Origin: Alphaproteobacteria bacterium | GTDB lineage: Bacteria; Pseudomonadota; Alphaproteobacteria; SMXP01 | Assembly (NCBI GenBank): GCA_028285305.1 | Contig: JANQPV010000004.1 | Coordinates: forward strand, 1-41,684 | Direction: 5' to 3' | DNA: 41,684 nt | In this document: piece after piece, positions 23,032 to 31,950 of the stretch | Layout of the letters: each line of letters starts with the position of its first letter | How positions within the stretch are numbered: the stretch's first letter is position 1 | Notes under the pieces: model-generated | The model's input: the letters and a program-made list of their open reading frames with translations, nothing else | Told to the model about the DNA's origin: nothing | Databases searched by the model: none | Program-made: the position numbers and the translations under genes

Positions 23032-23782
23032 CGAACTCCTTATTTAGGACTACGACGCAAGACAAAGTCTGGAGCACTTTGAATCGCGAACTCCAGCCTT
23101 ACTCCTCGTGGTCTTCACGAAACCGAACTCAGCGGGCCCAATGTGGACCCGCCCGTCGATAGCGGCGAAGCGTCTTCAAATCTTGCCTCAATGGGCAAAA
23201 CACGCCTTTTGACAAAGGACGTAAGACGCATCTGATGAATGTCATTCAAACCTTTTTGCTAAATCGCCCCCATTGCTAGATCGCAGACGACAATCGAACC
23301 ATCTATTCAAGCGCTACTATGGGCTGTGCATGCGTTAAAATACATGGCAAAGTCATCAAATATGAACGTTGCTTTGTGACGAATTCGGCAGATAGAGAGG
23401 CTCACCTCTTTGCTTACCGCACTCTCAAAGACTTCAACATTTCATCCGGTTTGGAAAAGAAACCATCCCCGCCCCGACTCAGTTCAACTTGGGTAGGAGG
23501 GGATTGGAGAACCATTCGCTCTCACGGATTCCTTTTTGACCTCTTGATCTTCATATCTAACGCGTGCTGGTCGAGAGAGCCTATACCACAACACAAGAGA
23601 GAAACGAATTTTAGTTTCATCGGAATCTCCTTTTGAAAACCAGGAGATGAGACCGTTTTCCTGAACCTTGATGCGATCCGCTGACACATCAGAATTCCCT
23701 AAATGGTGGTTCACTTCTCCGCAGTCGCCCTTGATCCAAATCGATCGCCCCGACGTAAAGCAGTCATCATGGAGACATACAA
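23032..23782. other. 750-base region without a convincing gene
   Basis: It must hold the actR promoter at its left end. Two overlapping open frames on opposite strands (105 and 76 codons, 23319-23636 and 23484-23714) have no recognisable motif, no good ribosome site and irregular composition; I do not call them. No sensor-kinase remnant could be recognised where actS/regB would be expected. Confidence 0.5.
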
Positions 23783-23932
23783 ATGAAGTTTAAGGAAAAG
23801 GCGAAATCAATCCCCAAACCCCAAAAACAGTCACACCTCTTTCGCAGGGGAGAACGCCCTTTTGCGAAGAGACTGGGTGATAAGTCTGCACACCGATTGC
23901 ACTATCATCTCTATGAAGATTTGCTGTCATAA
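23783..23932 (+). CDS. Possible small basic protein (49 residues)
   Basis: A short frame with GGAGA 7 nt before the ATG, encoding a Lys/Arg-rich peptide beginning MKFKEKAKSIPKPQKQ and ending HLYEDLLS. It has no membrane segment or cysteine. The good ribosome site and the codon pattern make it plausible, but there is nothing to compare it with. It ends 24 bases before the DCC-family gene, so it could be the first gene of that transcript. Confidence 0.35.
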   Translation: MKFKEKAKSIPKPQKQSHLFRRGERPFAKRLGDKSAHRLHYHLYEDLLS

Positions 23933-23956
23933 GTCGTCATCTGACGAGACGTACTC

Positions 23957-24497: not shown

Positions 24498-25076
24498 TTA
24501 AGCACGCAGCGACTCAAAGATTCCATCGATGGCGCGCGCTACACTCTCCGCGGAATCATTGTTCTCGCCCAAATTGTAAAGTGCCGCTTCCGCCACGAGG
24601 GCATTGAGCAAGCGGGCGGTCAAGGCCGGCTGCTCTAATGTGATCTCACCGTCATCCGCGGCCTCTTTCAGGAGGTTTTCAAACGCCTTCAGACTAAATG
24701 AGTCTTCGATCCTTTTTGCCCTCTGTTGTCCGAGAGCGGACGGTCCGATTTCGAACAAGATCTTTGAAACACTGGGTGTTTTGACCTCGCCCAGCCAGGC
24801 CACACATGCATCTCGAAGCCGCACGAGAGGCGGCAAGGCCTCATCCACGCTTTGGAGGGCACGCTCAATCGCACGCCGCGATTCGTCCGTATAGATGGCC
24901 TCAACAATTTCGGTCTTACTTCGAAAATGATGATAGAGCGCACCTTTGCTGAGCTCCGTTTCAGACAGCACGCTGTCGACGGATGTCGCGTCGTAACCAC
25001 GCTTCAGAAATGCAGCCCTAAAGGCCTTGACCAGTTTGGCCCGGGTAGTTTCGGAGCGTTGTTTCTGGGTCACCAT
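24498..25076 (-). CDS. TetR-family repressor of the SnoaL-like gene
   Basis: A 192-residue TetR regulator with the DNA-binding domain at about 8-55 (SVDSVLSETELSKGALYHHFRSK, given here as SETELSKGALYHHF) and an all-helical ligand domain. It is divergent from the SnoaL-like gene at 25166; the 89 bases between starts contain a perfect palindrome, so it likely represses both genes. AAGGTGG lies just before the ATG. Confidence 0.92.
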   Translation of the reverse strand: MVTQKQRSETTRAKLVKAFRAAFLKRGYDATSVDSVLSETELSKGALYHHFRSKTEIVEAIYTDESRRAIERALQSVDEALPPLVRLRDACVAWLGEVKTPSVSKILFEIGPSALGQQRAKRIEDSFSLKAFENLLKEAADDGEITLEQPALTARLLNALVAEAALYNLGENNDSAESVARAIDGIFESLRA

Positions 25077-25113
25077 AGACCACCTTTACACCAGCACACT
25101 CATCATGTAAAAC

Positions 25114-25130
25114 AAACCGACAGTCGGTTT
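25114..25130. promoter_or_regulatory. Perfect palindromic TetR operator
   Basis: AAACCGACAGTCGGTTT is a perfect 17-base palindrome between the divergent TetR and SnoaL-like genes. The ACCGAC-N-GTCGGT form is common among TetR operators. Confidence 0.75.
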
Positions 25131-25165
25131 TTATCTAACAAAGTTTCGTTTCACCGGAGGAAGCC

Positions 25166-25525
25166 ATGGAAACTCATATTGAGAACCTAAACCGGATGCT
25201 CGCCGTCTGGAACTCAACAGATGAAACAGAGATCCGCGATTTGACCGAAACGGCCCTAGAGCACAATGTCCATTTTGTGGATCCCAACCACAACATTATC
25301 GGCCGCGAGGCGTTCATTGACATGGTGCATCTGGTCCATAGCCAAATTCCGGGGGCAGTCTATTCCCGTGCAAGCCGGATCGATGTGCAAAACAATCATT
25401 GCCGGTATCACTGGGCGATCCACCAGAACAATGAACTGATTATGCCTGGCTTTGATGTCACCGAAGTCAATGACGCCGGTAAAATCGTCAAGGTGATTGG
25501 GTTCTTTGGAGAATTGGGCTCTTAG
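25166..25525 (+). CDS. SnoaL-like / NTF2-fold protein
   Basis: A 119-residue protein with the cone-shaped NTF2/SnoaL-like fold by pattern: an N-terminal helix (LNRMLAVWNS), VHFVDPNHNIIGREAFIDMV, a sheet ending in CRYHWAIHQNNELIMPGFDV and KIVKVIGFFGEL. Such proteins are isomerases, cyclases, dehydratases or ligand binders; nothing here fixes which. The gene is under the divergent TetR gene with its palindrome and appears to be a single-gene unit. GGAGGAAGCC before the ATG is a strong site. Confidence 0.8.
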   Translation: METHIENLNRMLAVWNSTDETEIRDLTETALEHNVHFVDPNHNIIGREAFIDMVHLVHSQIPGAVYSRASRIDVQNNHCRYHWAIHQNNELIMPGFDVTEVNDAGKIVKVIGFFGELGS

Positions 25526-25632
25526 CCTTGGTCCAGCGGCCTTGGAAAGCTCTTTGACCGGAAAAGCGAGCAAGCCGCAATGGTGGAGATGTACTCCGCA
25601 AACGCAGTACGACGGGCGCCGGCCCGCTAGCT

Positions 25633-25694
25633 AAAGTCCTTTTCCGTCAGTATGGGATCGCTCAGGCAGTCGAGTAACAAGCCACGAACGAGAT
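25633..25694 (-). repeat. Fragment of a tetR 3' end (left copy of a direct repeat)
   Basis: 62 bases match 28685-28746 inside the intact tetR at 28646, with 7 mismatches (89 %). In the coding frame it reads LVRGLLLDCLSDPILTEKDF against LVRGFLLDCLSDPTLTEKDF. The reading frame is preserved, so it is a remnant of a related tetR rather than a random match. Similarity stops abruptly at 25694. Confidence 0.85.
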
Positions 25695-25700
25695 AATCAC

Positions 25701-25811
25701 GCGGCGGTGCTGCACCTTGGGAAGGGGGTGAAAGCCCCATCCCAGCGGGACCCTTACAATTGCACCGCCGCTGTGCGGCTTGAGTTAAACGGCGCTCTCG
25801 GCTCAACGCAC
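25701..25811. ncRNA. Strongly folded element, HEARO/omega-RNA-like in outline
   Basis: Two adjacent structures are visible. The first is a perfect 10-bp stem GCGGCGGTGC/GCACCGCCGC (25701-25710/25762-25771) enclosing GGGA..GGGG/CCCC..TCCC (719-743 of the same block, loop TGAAAG). The second is GTGCG..TTGAG with CTCAA-CGCAC (25773-25784/25802-25811). The motifs CACCTTGGG, GTGAAAGCCCC and CCCTTACAATTGCACCG recall to me the scaffold of HEARO (IscB-type omega) RNAs; a group II intron fragment is the alternative. No HNH, TnpB or reverse-transcriptase gene is nearby. Orientation is probably plus if the omega idea holds. The family is a guess; the fold is plain in the sequence. Confidence 0.35.
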
Positions 25812-26145
25812 TGACGGCTCTTTTCACATGAGGCCACCACTCACATAGAAGCCAAAAAGGGGGGATTGTTTTCTTGAAAGCAGCGAAGTCTCCATCCGGC
25901 CCAATCCTGACGTAAATTGATTGCGCTTGAGGCGTCACCTTTTGGCTTAGTTAAGAACGTTCAATGTATGATTGGGTCCGACAAAAGACCTGGGCATTTT
26001 CGAAGGCGCAGTTCGTAAGCTCGGCTGGTCATACACCTCAAAGACGGCACGCGCGTAGGCGTTGGCGAGTTGCGTGACGCGGTAAGTCAAATTGAGAGTT
26101 ACGAACAGAGGAAGACCGGCACGCTAAGGATCACTGGTACGATGC

Positions 26146-26373
26146 TCAACTGAGTCCGCCGTTACCCTCTTTCGTCCCTGCAATGACTGATCGTCCCTTA
26201 ACTGCTTCGCGGCACTTGGAACATTTTCCTCGGTCGATGTCAGACTTAGCTAGTTTGTGACCGCAATTCCTGCAAGCCGGCAATTCTTGTGTTTTTGGAC
26301 CACGCTCTGGACTCTCCTGAAAAACACGTTTGGATCGCCCAGGTGCAACATAGTGCCTCGACAGCTTGATCAT
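26146..26373 (-). CDS. Small zinc-ribbon protein, unknown function
   Basis: A 75-residue basic protein with two CxxC knuckles (ACRNCGHK and GKCSKCRE, 11 residues between the pairs), a zinc-ribbon pattern seen in nucleic-acid-binding and adaptor proteins. The N-terminal half is basic and Pro/Arg-rich, probably disordered. The ribosome site is poor. It belongs to the AT-richer insert between the tetR repeats. I know no family for it. Confidence 0.5.
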   Translation of the reverse strand: MIKLSRHYVAPGRSKRVFQESPERGPKTQELPACRNCGHKLAKSDIDRGKCSKCREAVKGRSVIAGTKEGNGGLS

Positions 26374-26467
26374 AGTTGAAGATCCGATTTTGCTGAGATG
26401 TTCGCCAAAGAAGTTGTGAAGGCGGACCTGGACTAACCCAGACCCGCCTAGGGCGTTTTCGCCTTTG

Positions 26468-26656
26468 TCAGCCTGCAGCGGCCAAAATGCAAAGTATGAT
26501 GAAGCCTACAATGATCATTTCAGCTAAACCGCCACCACTTTCGCCACCGATTCCAATACCGAATGAGGGGCCACCTGAGCATTCCTTTTCTTGGGACGGC
26601 TCGGCCGAAATACTGTCGATTTGCTTTGCGCATTCTTCAATTATGATGTCTTCCAT
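26468..26656 (-). CDS. Gly-rich small tail-anchored membrane peptide
   Basis: A 62-residue peptide in three parts: an acidic N-terminus with two Cys (MEDIIIEECAKQIDS to QEKEC), a Gly/Ser segment (SGGPSFGIGIGGESGGG), and a C-terminal hydrophobic helix (MIIVGFIILCILAAAG). AAGGA 7 nt before the ATG supports translation. The layout (acidic leader, GG motifs, glycine-rich part, hydrophobic end) resembles precursor peptides of class II microcins as well as small membrane toxins, but no transporter, protease or immunity gene is evident nearby. It is the third element of the insert and convergent in sense with the zinc-ribbon gene downstream on the same strand (94 bases apart). Confidence 0.55.
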   Translation of the reverse strand: MEDIIIEECAKQIDSISAEPSQEKECSGGPSFGIGIGGESGGGLAEMIIVGFIILCILAAAG

Positions 26657-26853
26657 GACAATGTCCTTTACTTGTATGTTGGGTTATCGACATCCAGAAG
26701 ATAAACATTAAGTCGCTACTTGTAGCAGCAAGAGATTGGCAAAAATCAATTGAATCTAACGAGCGATTTGCCGGTTTTTTGCCGGGGGGCGACTATTCAA
26801 AAACAAGGATCCGTGTAAGGATACCAACTACGAGTGTCAGAACGCATTGACAT

Positions 26854-28356
26854 GTGAAAATTTCCTGGAGGAGATGGCTGGAGCGCGCCCCTACGATGAG
26901 AACCAGAATCAGCTCACTATCATTGAGTCAATTGCAGCCGAAGGAACGGGCTAACATTATTAGGGATGTTCTCTCCGTTAACGTAGAGCAACTCGCTTCG
27001 GCCGAGTATTTCGACGTCAAAGAAGGCAAAAAGACACGTGTATTCTCGCGGCTAACATCTACGTCATCAATAGCAAAACTGTTTAGACCAGCCAATACGA
27101 CCACACCGTGGAGAGCGGAATACTCCATCCCGTTTGTATTGTGGTTACAGCAAGAACAAGGATATAAGAATGCCCCTCTGACTTTGTTTGTAGCTAACGC
27201 GACCACTGAAGAAGAATTCTTAGATCTGTTGTATAACGGAGACCCAGAGGAAAAACCTCTGGTGAAGAACAGTAGTGCGATTTCCATTCCAAAGTACCGG
27301 CGTCCGGAGGAGAATAGGGTCAGTCTACTGATTAAACAAGCTCTGGCAGTTTCCCGGGACCCTGAGTATTTCCGTAAGCCATCTGCAACAGAACATAGCC
27401 TTGCGGAGCGGAACGCGCGTGACTTGGATGAGTTGCTTGTGCAGGGCGACGTGTTATTGCCTCCTGACGAACTTATAAATATGGGCAATATTCTAGAACT
27501 TTGCACCGGATGCGGAAAGGGAGCGGAAGAATACCCAGTCTTTGCATCCAGTTTCGAGAGCCAATGGGATCGACTGGACGAGCTGGAAATGTCTTTAGAA
27601 ACAGATGAGCATTATATTGGCCTGGCGCAACTTGGGTCTAGAATTGTTCAAGGAAAGATAATCAGTGGGCGGCTTGAAGAGGCGCGGCCAGACGCACAAG
27701 CGATAGAAGACTGGATTACCCGAGGACTTATTCGTAAGGACAATTATTGGGGCGTGGCTCTGGATGCGAGGATTAATCAAGTCCTGATAGAATCTGAAAT
27801 AGCAGTAGATATATGGATTGAGGAATTCCCAAGGATAGCTGCAAATAACTGCAGTGAGAATTCTTTTGAGTACTTCAAGGCTTTGAAGTGCAGGGCATGC
27901 CGCGCGATTTCCTGTGGTTCTCCAAAGGCACGCGAATGCGTAGAAGATGCGAAAGAGGCATTTGCTAGATATGAGACTCGATTGGCGGCTCATTCGGAGC
28001 ACTTAGAACACGAGCGAGGTGATTTAGCGTATTTGGAAATTCATTTTATCGCAGAAAATTCATCGTTGCGAGGTAGATCTCAAGGCAAAGACCTGCGTGA
28101 CATTGTGGGGATTGAGAAATTAGAAGAAAACGTGAAACTCCGGAACGCCCCAATCAGAAATGCCCGCGCGCTTTTGCTACTTTGGAAGGCCACTGGACGT
28201 GAGAGAACTGATCTCTTGATAAGGGCGCAGCGATTGGCCTGGAAGCAGCCGTCGTTAAAGCACATTTGCCTATTTAGCGTGTCTGGTCTACGCGACGAAA
28301 TTACCGGCGCGTTGCGTATTGCAGGTGGATTGGAACCTAGAGAAGCACGACTTTGA
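26854..28356 (+). CDS. 500-residue protein of unknown function
   Basis: I recognise no family. The protein is mostly helical, without signal peptide or membrane segment, with an early Ser/Leu-rich part, a cysteine cluster in the middle (ELCTGCGKG, and later KCRACRAISCGSPKARECVED) that could bind metal, and a C-terminal helical-repeat-like section (RNARALLLLWKATGRERTDLL). Codon use is AT-richer than its neighbours (many AGA, ATA, TTA, GAA), a sign of foreign origin. The start is uncertain: GTG 26854 has no ribosome site, while ATG 26896 lies 20 bases past the only GGAGG. A GGAGGAG directly before ATG 26875 opens a 26-codon frame out of phase with the main one. The function might be defence-related given the island context, but nothing shows it. 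Confidence 0.7.
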   Translation: MKISWRRWLERAPTMRTRISSLSLSQLQPKERANIIRDVLSVNVEQLASAEYFDVKEGKKTRVFSRLTSTSSIAKLFRPANTTTPWRAEYSIPFVLWLQQEQGYKNAPLTLFVANATTEEEFLDLLYNGDPEEKPLVKNSSAISIPKYRRPEENRVSLLIKQALAVSRDPEYFRKPSATEHSLAERNARDLDELLVQGDVLLPPDELINMGNILELCTGCGKGAEEYPVFASSFESQWDRLDELEMSLETDEHYIGLAQLGSRIVQGKIISGRLEEARPDAQAIEDWITRGLIRKDNYWGVALDARINQVLIESEIAVDIWIEEFPRIAANNCSENSFEYFKALKCRACRAISCGSPKARECVEDAKEAFARYETRLAAHSEHLEHERGDLAYLEIHFIAENSSLRGRSQGKDLRDIVGIEKLEENVKLRNAPIRNARALLLLWKATGRERTDLLIRAQRLAWKQPSLKHICLFSVSGLRDEITGALRIAGGLEPREARL

Positions 28357-28645
28357 CAGTACTTCCAACGATTGCAGTCAGTCAGTGATTCGAAGCTTAT
28401 CTGTGAAAGGCGCTTTTTGGGTCGATAGAATACAAAGAGTTTTGGTCTCCGTCATTTTGAGCGCAGCCCGCGTGCTTGGTCACTATTCGTCAAAAGTTCA
28501 GAGTTGTACGGCAAACGAGCCGTTCCTTAACTTTGGCAAGAATGTCAACTATTGGCGAAAGCCCGACGTTGGTCAATCACACCAGACGGGAAGAAAAAGA
28601 CCGATCACTTTGGCCCTCATGGAACTTCGCGCGCGTGAAGTGTCA

Positions 28646-29209
28646 TCACGTGAACGACGACAGCAAGGCGTTGGCTCGCTTCCCAAAATCCTTTTCCGTC
28701 AGTGTGGGATCGCTCAGGCAGTCGAGCAGAAAGCCACGCACCAGATTGGTGAGCGCACAAGCAAGACGCTCAGGTTGTTTGTAGCCAGAATACTTCAAAT
28801 CACCCGCCAGCCTGTCAATGCCCTCTTGTACCCAGTTTGTCAGAAGGTCCGCGAACTCAGGGTTACGGCTGCCGTAAAGCGCCAGTTCCAGATCGAGGCG
28901 TACGGACGAGCTGTCCGTAATTTCCTCCTTCACGACGCTCGCCAAAACATCGATGACTTGCGCCCTTGTCATGTTCTTTGTTGGCTCCCAACCGATCTTG
29001 CTCCGGTAGTCCTGAAAGGATCCCAGATAGGCCTCAAAGGCTTTGCGAATGAGCCCCTCTCGGGTCGGAAAATGATAGCCGACGACGCCGTGTGAAAGAC
29101 CGGCTTTTTGCCCCACGCGCCGGTGCGTGACGGCATCCACCCCTTCTTTGTCGATCACCTGAAGCGCGGCTTCCAGCACTTGCAGCCGCGTCTTCTCACC
29201 AGCTTTCAC
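28646..29209 (-). CDS. TetR-family repressor of the flavoprotein operon
   Basis: A 187-residue TetR regulator. The DNA-binding part (about 8-52) reads VTHRRVGQKAGLSHGVVGYHF; the rest is helical and ends LSDPTLTEKDFGKRANALLSSFT minus the last residues. GTG 29209 is the start (GGTGAGG 5 nt upstream). It is divergent from the membrane-protein gene at 29341 and the gap carries a very long inverted repeat, so it should repress that operon. Its 3' part is duplicated as a fragment at 25633-25694. Confidence 0.9.
   Translation of the reverse strand: MKAGEKTRLQVLEAALQVIDKEGVDAVTHRRVGQKAGLSHGVVGYHFPTREGLIRKAFEAYLGSFQDYRSKIGWEPTKNMTRAQVIDVLASVVKEEITDSSSVRLDLELALYGSRNPEFADLLTNWVQEGIDRLAGDLKYSGYKQPERLACALTNLVRGFLLDCLSDPTLTEKDFGKRANALLSSFT
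28685..28746 (-). repeat. Right copy of the tetR-derived direct repeat
   Basis: Intact coding sequence near the 3' end of the tetR gene, matching 25633-25694 at 55 of 62 bases. The two copies bracket the insert with the three unknown genes. Confidence 0.85.
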
Positions 29210-29340: not shown

Positions 29341-30051
29341 ATGAAGGAACTCTCAAATCGCATCAACACGTTGGGTGTGGTGGCCGGTGCCGTCTTCATC
29401 ATCACCGGCATCCTCTCTTTCTTTCTACCTCTGGATGCCCCGGCCCCCACGCAAGAAGACACAGCTCTTTGGCACATGAACACAGCGGGCCCTTATCTTT
29501 TCGGATGGCTCAATCAGATTATCGCCATGCTTGCTCTGTCGGTGGTCTTGGCGGTGGCCGCATGGCAGATATTTCCCGCCGCACCGCTTCGTGCAGGCAC
29601 GGTTTGGGTCTTGACGGTGAGTTCAACGGTCGTCTTCCTTATCTCCAAGTTCCTGTCCATTTGGGCCGTCCCGTTGCTGGCCAAAGCCATTGCAGCAGGA
29701 AGCAACGAAAGCGAAGCAGCCGCAACTTTGTTGTCTGCGCTCGGACCATCAACGGCATTCGGTCTTATTCCGTCCATGGATTATCTGGGATTTTGGCTTT
29801 ACGCCCTCATCGGCTTTTTTGCCTTTCGGCCGCTTTTTCGCCTATCCTGGAGCGCGAAGATCGCCGCGGTCGTATTGCTCATATATGGGATTGCGTTCCA
29901 CCTTGTCGGCATCGCTGTCTTGATCGACATCCTGTCTCAAAGCCAAGTGGGCGACAGCGTCATGTCAATCGCCTATCTCGTTGCCATCGCGGCCATCGCA
30001 TCCCTGTTTCACTTCCGGGCGCCTGTCCTATCGAACCCCAAACGAGCATGA
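29341..30051 (+). CDS. Multi-pass membrane protein, first gene of the flavoprotein operon
   Basis: A 236-residue inner-membrane protein with about six hydrophobic helices (near residues 12-30, 52-75, 84-110, 143-163, 168-190 and 205-225) and no catalytic motif I can name. Between helices 1 and 2 lies a conserved-looking DTALWHMNTAGPYLFGWLNQI segment, quoted only as WHMNTAGPYLFGW. It may transport or anchor something for the next two genes: the flavoprotein starts 9 bases downstream. GGAGG 7 nt before the ATG is strong, and the inverted-repeat operator ends 19 bases upstream. Confidence 0.75.
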   Translation: MKELSNRINTLGVVAGAVFIITGILSFFLPLDAPAPTQEDTALWHMNTAGPYLFGWLNQIIAMLALSVVLAVAAWQIFPAAPLRAGTVWVLTVSSTVVFLISKFLSIWAVPLLAKAIAAGSNESEAAATLLSALGPSTAFGLIPSMDYLGFWLYALIGFFAFRPLFRLSWSAKIAAVVLLIYGIAFHLVGIAVLIDILSQSQVGDSVMSIAYLVAIAAIASLFHFRAPVLSNPKRA

Positions 30052-30060
30052 GTGAGGACG

Positions 30061-31950
30061 ATGACCAATCGAAAACCGATTACCCGCCGGGACTTTCTCA
30101 ACGGAACAGCGGTGGCCGTCACCGCGGCTGGACTGGCTCCTCATGGATGGGCCCAGTCCCTTGTCGGCGGCACCGCCTCGTTTAGAGACGATACGTACTA
30201 TCCGCCAAGCCTCACCGGCATGAGAGGTAACCATCCAGGGGCCTTCGACGCTGCCCATGCACTCGCGTGGAACGACAATGCCCCATCCATGTTCCGCGAC
30301 ACCGGCGAAGACTATGACTTGGTTGTTATCGGTGGCGGGCTGAGCGGTTTGGCGGCAGCTTTGTTTTTTCAACAAGAACGCGGGCCAGACCAGCGTATTC
30401 TCATTCTCGACAATCACGATGATTTTGGCGGCCACGCCAAGAGGAACGAATTCAACGTCGCAGGCCGCATGTTGCTCGGCGTCGGCGGCAGCATCAACTT
30501 GGAGGCGCCGAAAAACTATAGCCGGACTGCCAAAGCTCTCCTCAAAGACCTCGGCATTGACATGACGAAGCTCGAAGCGGCGAATGATCCAACTTACATA
30601 ATGTCTGGAGGCGGGCGCAACACGGGCTATTATGTCAAAACGAGCCGAGGTGAATCGCGGATGATCACCGGGCGCTGGATGGGGGCGTTGCGCGGAAAAA
30701 CCGATCCCGCACCGTTCATCGAACAACTCCCGTACACGAAGGAAGACAAGGCGGCGCTCCTCAAGTTGGTTGGAGGCGAGTGGGATTTCCTCGTTGGCCT
30801 GTCTGTTTCCGAGCGCGCTGACTATCTGTCCTCTCACTCCTATTACGAGTTTTTGACCGACAAGGTGGGACTTTCCGAAGAAGCCCTTTCTTTCGCCGAC
30901 CCGATCCTGCGCCCGAACTATGGCGTGGGCGGAGACGGTCTGTCTGTCAGCGAAGCCCTATTTGGGGGGGCACCGGGGCTTCGCGCAGTGGGATGGCCCT
31001 GGGCCTGGGGCGAACGCCTCTTCTACAATGAGGACCGCCCGTTCCATGCATTAGTCTTTCCAGATGGCAATGCCTCAGTCGCACGGCTCATGGTCCGCAG
31101 ACTGATCCCTGACGTGGCGCCCGGCACCACAATGGATGACATCGTCAATGCCCGCTTTGACTATAGCAAGCTCGACGCAGAAGGATCGCCGGTGCGAATT
31201 CGCCTCAACAGCACAGCCGTTCGTGTACAGCAAGAGGGTGAAAGCGTCTCCGTCTCCTATGCTGTGGACGGCCGTGCTCACCGCGTTCGGGCAAAACACT
31301 GTATCCTGGCATGCTACAATGCCATCATTCCACATCTATTGCCTGAGCTCCCGGATGAGCAGAGAGATGCGCTGAAATACGGCTCAAAAGTACCGCTCAT
31401 TTGGACGAATGTCGCCCTACGCGATGGCTCCCCTTTCCACCGCGCCGGGTCTGACATCTTTCTGTGTCCGAATAGCTTCTTTCAATTTGTGACAAAAGCA
31501 CCCCCGACCAAGATGGACGGCTATCAGGCACCACAAGACCCTGCCGATCCGCTCGTCGTCTTCATGTGGCATATGCCCGTTCCCCGAAAGCAAGAAGGAC
31601 AAACCGCCCGCGATCTCTTCAGGTTGGCACGCTATGAGCTTCTTGAAACCCCCTTCTCCAAATTCGAAGAGGAGGTCAAGGCACAACTCACCGACATGTA
31701 CGGCGAGTACGGATTTGTAGCTGACAGGGACATTGAAGCCATTACAGTCAATCGATGGTCGCACGGCTATGCTTATATCTATCTAGATCTCGATGACCCA
31801 AAGTTTAAAGACGGACAACACCCCCATGAGATCGGCCGCAAACAGTTCGGACGCATTTCAATCGCCAACACCGATTCCGAGGCGAGAGCTTACCTTGACG
31901 CCGCCATTGACGCGGCTTGGCGCGCAGTGGAAGAACAACTCTCTCTGTAA
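30061..31950 (+). CDS. Tat-exported FAD-dependent oxidoreductase
   Basis: A 629-residue flavoprotein with a twin-arginine signal (TRRDFLNGTAV, cleavage near GWA-QS), so it is folded with FAD and exported to the periplasm. The FAD fold has VVIGGGLSGLAAALFF near residues 86-101 followed by ILDNHDDFGGHAKRNEF, an amine-oxidase-like layout (spermidine-dehydrogenase-type proteins share GGHAKRNEF). The C-terminal part contains VNRWSHGYAYIY, typical of amine-oxidase-like enzymes. Oxidation of an amine or alcohol is likely; the substrate is unknown. ATG 30061 is chosen over GTG 30052, which would sit directly on the previous stop. Confidence 0.88.
   Translation: MTNRKPITRRDFLNGTAVAVTAAGLAPHGWAQSLVGGTASFRDDTYYPPSLTGMRGNHPGAFDAAHALAWNDNAPSMFRDTGEDYDLVVIGGGLSGLAAALFFQQERGPDQRILILDNHDDFGGHAKRNEFNVAGRMLLGVGGSINLEAPKNYSRTAKALLKDLGIDMTKLEAANDPTYIMSGGGRNTGYYVKTSRGESRMITGRWMGALRGKTDPAPFIEQLPYTKEDKAALLKLVGGEWDFLVGLSVSERADYLSSHSYYEFLTDKVGLSEEALSFADPILRPNYGVGGDGLSVSEALFGGAPGLRAVGWPWAWGERLFYNEDRPFHALVFPDGNASVARLMVRRLIPDVAPGTTMDDIVNARFDYSKLDAEGSPVRIRLNSTAVRVQQEGESVSVSYAVDGRAHRVRAKHCILACYNAIIPHLLPELPDEQRDALKYGSKVPLIWTNVALRDGSPFHRAGSDIFLCPNSFFQFVTKAPPTKMDGYQAPQDPADPLVVFMWHMPVPRKQEGQTARDLFRLARYELLETPFSKFEEEVKAQLTDMYGEYGFVADRDIEAITVNRWSHGYAYIYLDLDDPKFKDGQHPHEIGRKQFGRISIANTDSEARAYLDAAIDAAWRAVEEQLSL

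Follow-up and report, generated by a model that had tools for sequence, protein, structure and literature searches.

Three ORFan genes between an intact tetR gene and a decayed copy of its 3' end, a possible case of 3'-end displacement in an Alphaproteobacteria bacterium

The window that we have analyzed, 41,684 nucleotides within a 243-kb contig of the 5.4-Mb genome of an Alphaproteobacteria bacterium, holds a stretch of ~3 kb that lies between an intact tetR gene (tetR1) and the decayed tail of a second tetR and whose three genes belong to no known family (Table 1). At this locus, we have observed a direct repeat limited by codon 156 and by the end of the gene, one intact and one decayed copy, a foreign composition and, to the right, a conserved module. 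Such an arrangement would be compatible with the entry of foreign DNA with three ORFans at the 3' end of tetR1, bringing a homologous 3' end and displacing the old one, as prophage e14 did in icd. We hold this reading tentatively, with a probability of roughly 0.45. The agent may have been a site-specific integrase, homology-facilitated illegitimate recombination or a duplication plus insertion.

Table 1. Features in and around the interval (positions of the window).
Feature	Position	Strand	Remarks
Left flank: tetR2 (24498-25076, -) and divergent SnoaL-like gene (25166-25525, +)	24498-25525		Pair recurs elsewhere in the class
tetR relic: last ~31 codons, residues 156-186, in-frame TAG	25600-25696	-	Putative displaced 3' end, attR-like copy
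22-nt identical core TGGGATCGCTCAGGCAGTCGAG, common to 28705-28726	25653-25674		Longest identical run; candidate crossover core
Insert, bounded by the two tetR 3' ends	25695-28645		~2.95 kb; no integrase, transposase or tRNA found
75-aa ORF, CxxC...CxxC zinc-ribbon-like motif	26146-26373	-	Sub-threshold matches only
62-aa ORF, Gly-rich, hydrophobic C-terminus	26468-26656	-	AAAGGA ribosome-binding-like site upstream
488-aa ORFan	26890-28356	+	Largely helical in low-confidence model; start uncertain (GTG 26854 also listed)
Intact tetR1, TetR_N + TetR_C_31	28646-29209	-	Presumed regulator of the divergent module to the right; 3' end is the right copy, 28667-28746
Membrane protein (29341-30051) and FAD oxidoreductase with TAT signal (30052-31950)	29341-31950	+	Native partners of tetR1

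The initial annotation had reported two 62-base copies (25633-25694 and 28685-28746) with 89% identity. Counting from the sequence returned the same value (55 of 62 identical, 7 differing positions), and local comparison with blastn extended the repeat to 80 nt, with the direct copies 25615-25694 and 28667-28746 being identical at 67 of 80 ungapped positions (84%, E 8e-21). This repeat was the only significant DNA match of the insert inside the window, and its longest identical run measured 22 nt. At the protein level, the left copy aligned with the right-hand TetR, which is 187 residues long, from residue 156 to residue 186, with 71% identity over 31 aa (E 1e-10), and contained one in-frame TAG. 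This supported the earlier description of the left copy, which would be a truncated relic related to the intact tetR1. Along the gene, the repeat was abruptly limited at codon 156, and its other edge fell within one codon of the stop of the intact gene. As the homology is confined between codon 156 and the gene end, the relic corresponds to the terminal ~31 codons of the gene. The repeat thus appears to be the 3' terminus of the gene, with the intact gene on one side and a truncated copy on the other, and its ending at the gene end points to 3'-end displacement on integration and not to a generic flanking repeat. A diverged copy of a gene's tail beyond foreign DNA is the usual scar of entry into the 3' end of that gene.

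The insert had also been described as AT-richer than its surroundings. This applied to the 488-aa gene (GC 0.477 vs. 0.55 for the rest of the window) and to the DNA around it (0.45-0.52), and did not apply to the left 451 bp of the insert (0.543). The AT-rich stretch is therefore shorter than the interval, the GC drop beginning ~450 bp from the left boundary. The different codon use claimed for the enclosed genes was found in all three, with z values against 29 window genes of -4.4 for the 488-aa ORF and of -2.4 and -4.4 for the 62-aa and 75-aa ORFs, the last two being noisy owing to the small size of these ORFs. Altogether, the DNA between the copies is foreign in composition. We have taken the 488-aa ORF as coding, because an open frame of 488 codons is far beyond chance; its true start is uncertain, since a short open piece (TCENFLEEMAGARPYDENQNQLTIIESIAAEGTG, ~26850-26951, + strand) overlaps it in another frame. 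The 62-aa and 75-aa ORFs are less certain as genes, though the former is preceded by a good ribosome-binding-like site.

None of the three enclosed ORFs reached the cut-off for any Pfam or NCBIfam family, as had been anticipated from the sequence, and their PHROG and PADLOC matches were weak and sub-significant. The 75-aa ORF contained two CxxC pairs, with zinc-ribbon matches below threshold. The 62-aa ORF had one viral match (35 aa, 40%), which we attribute to chance in view of the Gly-rich stretch and the lack of wider similarity. The 488-aa protein had no relative in Pfam, PHROGs, PADLOC, NCBIfam, PDB sequences, plasmids, phages, IMG/VR viral contigs or a GTDB pattern scan, the latter reaching close relatives only, and its AlphaFold model was unusable (mean pLDDT 40.7). 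The initial annotation had proposed that the insert genes be searched for in other genomes. This yielded nothing for the 488-aa gene among 60 relatives, 385 genomes of the class and 398 of the phylum (overlapping samples, ~840 look-ups), and in its own whole genome the insert was present at this locus alone.

The origin put forward initially was an integrated element, or a tandem duplication followed by insertion. This is partly supported, by the relic, the foreign composition and a related locus where the tetR module has neither insert nor relic; a recent duplication is disfavored by the 16% divergence of the copies, and no integrase was found. In the 3-kb interval, we have recognized no gene or remnant of an integrase, excisionase, relaxase or transposase, either among the insert ORFs or in six-frame pieces. 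There were no convincing inverted repeats at the interval ends and no transposase match. Judged by these features, the interval does not appear to be a transposon or insertion sequence, as defined by terminal inverted repeats, a short target-site duplication and a transposase. No tRNA was detected in or around the interval, no Rfam RNA scored above the gathering score, and the 22-nt core was not found in viral contigs.

Under the favored reading, the incoming block would have carried the three ORFan genes together with its own homologous tetR 3' end. The crossover would have occurred in the shared block, for which the 22-nt identical run is the candidate core. After integration, the native 5' part of tetR1 would read into the incoming 3' end, and it is this joining that would keep the regulator intact. 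The original 3' end would have been moved ~3 kb to the far side of the insert, where it would have lost its function and then decayed, as the in-frame TAG suggests. A site-specific recombinase, since lost or supplied in trans, may have been the agent. Elements that target gene 3' ends have an integrase gene inside, usually adjoining the attachment site. Because the insert gave no recombinase match, we do not file the locus as an e14/icd-type element, only as one that would work like it.

Prophage e14 entered icd of Escherichia coli after codon 362, and the displaced icd copy of 165 bp carries 12 nucleotide changes, with two conservative replacements (PMC11148124; PMC6379469). Like the e14 locus with its displaced icd' / icdC, the present locus has an insert in the 3' part of a coding gene, an intact hybrid gene on one side and a diverged, displaced 3' end on the other, as well as a direct repeat whose differences are mostly silent. 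In contrast, e14 is phage-like, larger, and has an integrase gene, whereas the insert described here is ~3 kb long and holds ORFans only; moreover, at ~97 nt the repeat is shorter than that of e14, and with 84% identity over 80 nt it is also more diverged.

The same anatomy could have arisen without an integrase by homology-facilitated illegitimate recombination, a reading that we consider rather unlikely. Here, linear DNA carrying the tetR of a related bacterium would have paired with the native tetR, with a crossover inside the gene on one side and a non-homologous joint inside the native 3' end on the other. This would account for the missing integrase and for copies that have diverged, as well as for the sudden joint without homology at codon 156. 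In Vibrio T6SS clusters and Rhs loci, displaced 3' ends have already been attributed to such a process (PMC5361080). As in these orphan immunity loci, incoming DNA anchored by homology would displace the old 3' end, left as a relic. Unlike there, where the constant 5' part belongs to a toxin/effector locus and the new 3' end alters function, the regulator keeps a similar C-terminus. Against this mechanism, it is rare in experiments (PMC5361080; PMC3240628) and offers no sequence signature to look for at this locus.

The divergence between the two copies bears on a further explanation, in which tetR was duplicated in tandem long ago, DNA was then inserted or genes arose between the copies, and most of the left copy was lost by deletion. 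The 13 nucleotide differences across 26 aligned codons were distributed over 5 synonymous and 5 non-synonymous codons, and in the shared 20-codon core there were 4 synonymous and 2 non-synonymous ones (p ~0.02). Under random substitution, an equally strong synonymous excess was obtained in 2-4% of the trials (p ~0.02-0.04), with few sites. As the 20-codon core was picked after the alignment had been seen, this excess is suggestive only. It would fit two 3' ends that came together only after evolving apart, each in a functional gene, and it may argue against a purely neutral decay. Recent tandem duplicates would be near-identical, so that a recent duplication is disfavored by copies that differ at 16% of sites with a synonymous excess. 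An ancient one would fit the synonymous divergence if both copies had been functional for some time. It would also agree with copies that are adjacent and in the same orientation, in a module that otherwise has one tetR. We regard it nevertheless as unlikely: it needs at least three separate events, more than the alternatives, alignment revealed no homology between the sequences downstream of the two tetR ends, and sequence comparison detected no trace above noise of the remainder of the second tetR anywhere in the insert.

The right-hand gene matched both TetR_N (1.8e-8) and TetR_C_31 (1.9e-12), and is divergent from the genes of the membrane protein and the TAT-signal FAD oxidoreductase. The closest relative of this module was found in an alphaproteobacterial (Emcibacteraceae) MAG, with identities of 47, 46 and 56% for the three genes. 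There, tetR is also divergent from the other two, and one additional gene lies between the membrane protein and the oxidoreductase. The recurrence of this grouping identifies the right-hand tetR as the native partner of the module. The initial annotation had expected relatives lacking the insert to carry one tetR only. This was partly borne out, as the Emcibacteraceae MAG had neither relic nor insert downstream of its tetR; a chromosome empty at the same site was not found, the few same-family genomes examined being all devoid of the tetR1 module. The family search for tetR1 returned no relatives beyond those already found. The tetR1-membrane protein-FAD oxidoreductase unit had few detected relatives (one Emcibacteraceae MAG), and none of the libraries searched described its function. 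By itself, the FAD oxidoreductase is widespread (15 of 378 phylum genomes, including that of the window); in the loci examined, no tetR1 or membrane-protein neighbor was detected within 1.5 kb of it. The SnoaL gene to the left of the insert had no match in the Emcibacteraceae genome, which has a different left neighbor. Since the tetR2/SnoaL-like divergent pair and the tetR1 module each recur elsewhere on their own, the left and right modules are independent.

The presence of another tetR pair in the left flank would suit a scenario of two independently acquired tetR genes, where the relic is the tail of a related tetR from a lost neighboring module and the ORFans are unrelated local sequence. 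The 16% difference of the relic and the unrelated flanks would be equally expected. Yet the relic shares 71% with tetR1 over 31 aa, a much closer match than any between tetR1 and the other tetR genes in the genome (at most 41%, over 60 N-terminal domain residues), which makes this scenario improbable. It is hardly credible that these 3 kb make up a compact unit, complete in itself, that integrates at tetR 3' ends and in which the 488-aa ORFan serves as a new type of recombinase or helper. Most likely, the three ORFs are accessory genes carried as cargo by an integrated element that is inactivated or non-autonomous.

Taken as the entry of foreign DNA at the 3' end of tetR1, this small ORFan-bearing insert with a displaced 3' end would be a modest further case of an already known type of event. 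It resembles the ORFan-rich clusters of atypical genes of Cortez et al. 2009 (PMC2718499) in being a small run of compositionally atypical genes without relatives, and differs from them in that a specific junction repeat marks where the block starts and ends. Such clusters usually carry no trace of their arrival, and the locus gives one of them a well-delimited junction. Should relatives confirm the arrangement, the 3' end of a transcriptional regulator would join the protein-coding genes known as insertion points; otherwise, the locus would represent ordinary turnover of the accessory genome.

Some minor observations were made in and near the interval. To the left, between a response regulator and a DCC1-like gene, 925 bp (23032-23956) are also AT-richer (GC 0.475) and hold no convincing gene. 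Just inside the codon-156 boundary of the relic, at ~25702-25771, there is a 10-bp perfect inverted repeat (GCGGCGGTGC/GCACCGCCGC) with an inner hairpin, whose fold was not significant (z -1.7). It was considered as an integron attC site and rejected: a GTTAAAC box is present, with no RYYYAAC partner seen by eye. The 103-aa ORF at 25627-25938 (- strand) consists of unrelated sequence running in frame into the tetR relic and ending at its TAG, and is probably a chance fusion. Within the insert, a 44-codon open piece (26019-26150, + strand) containing LKDGTRVGVGELRDAVSQIESYEQRKTGTLRITGTMLN gave a weak match to DUF7709 (E 0.067) and is possibly another gene remnant.
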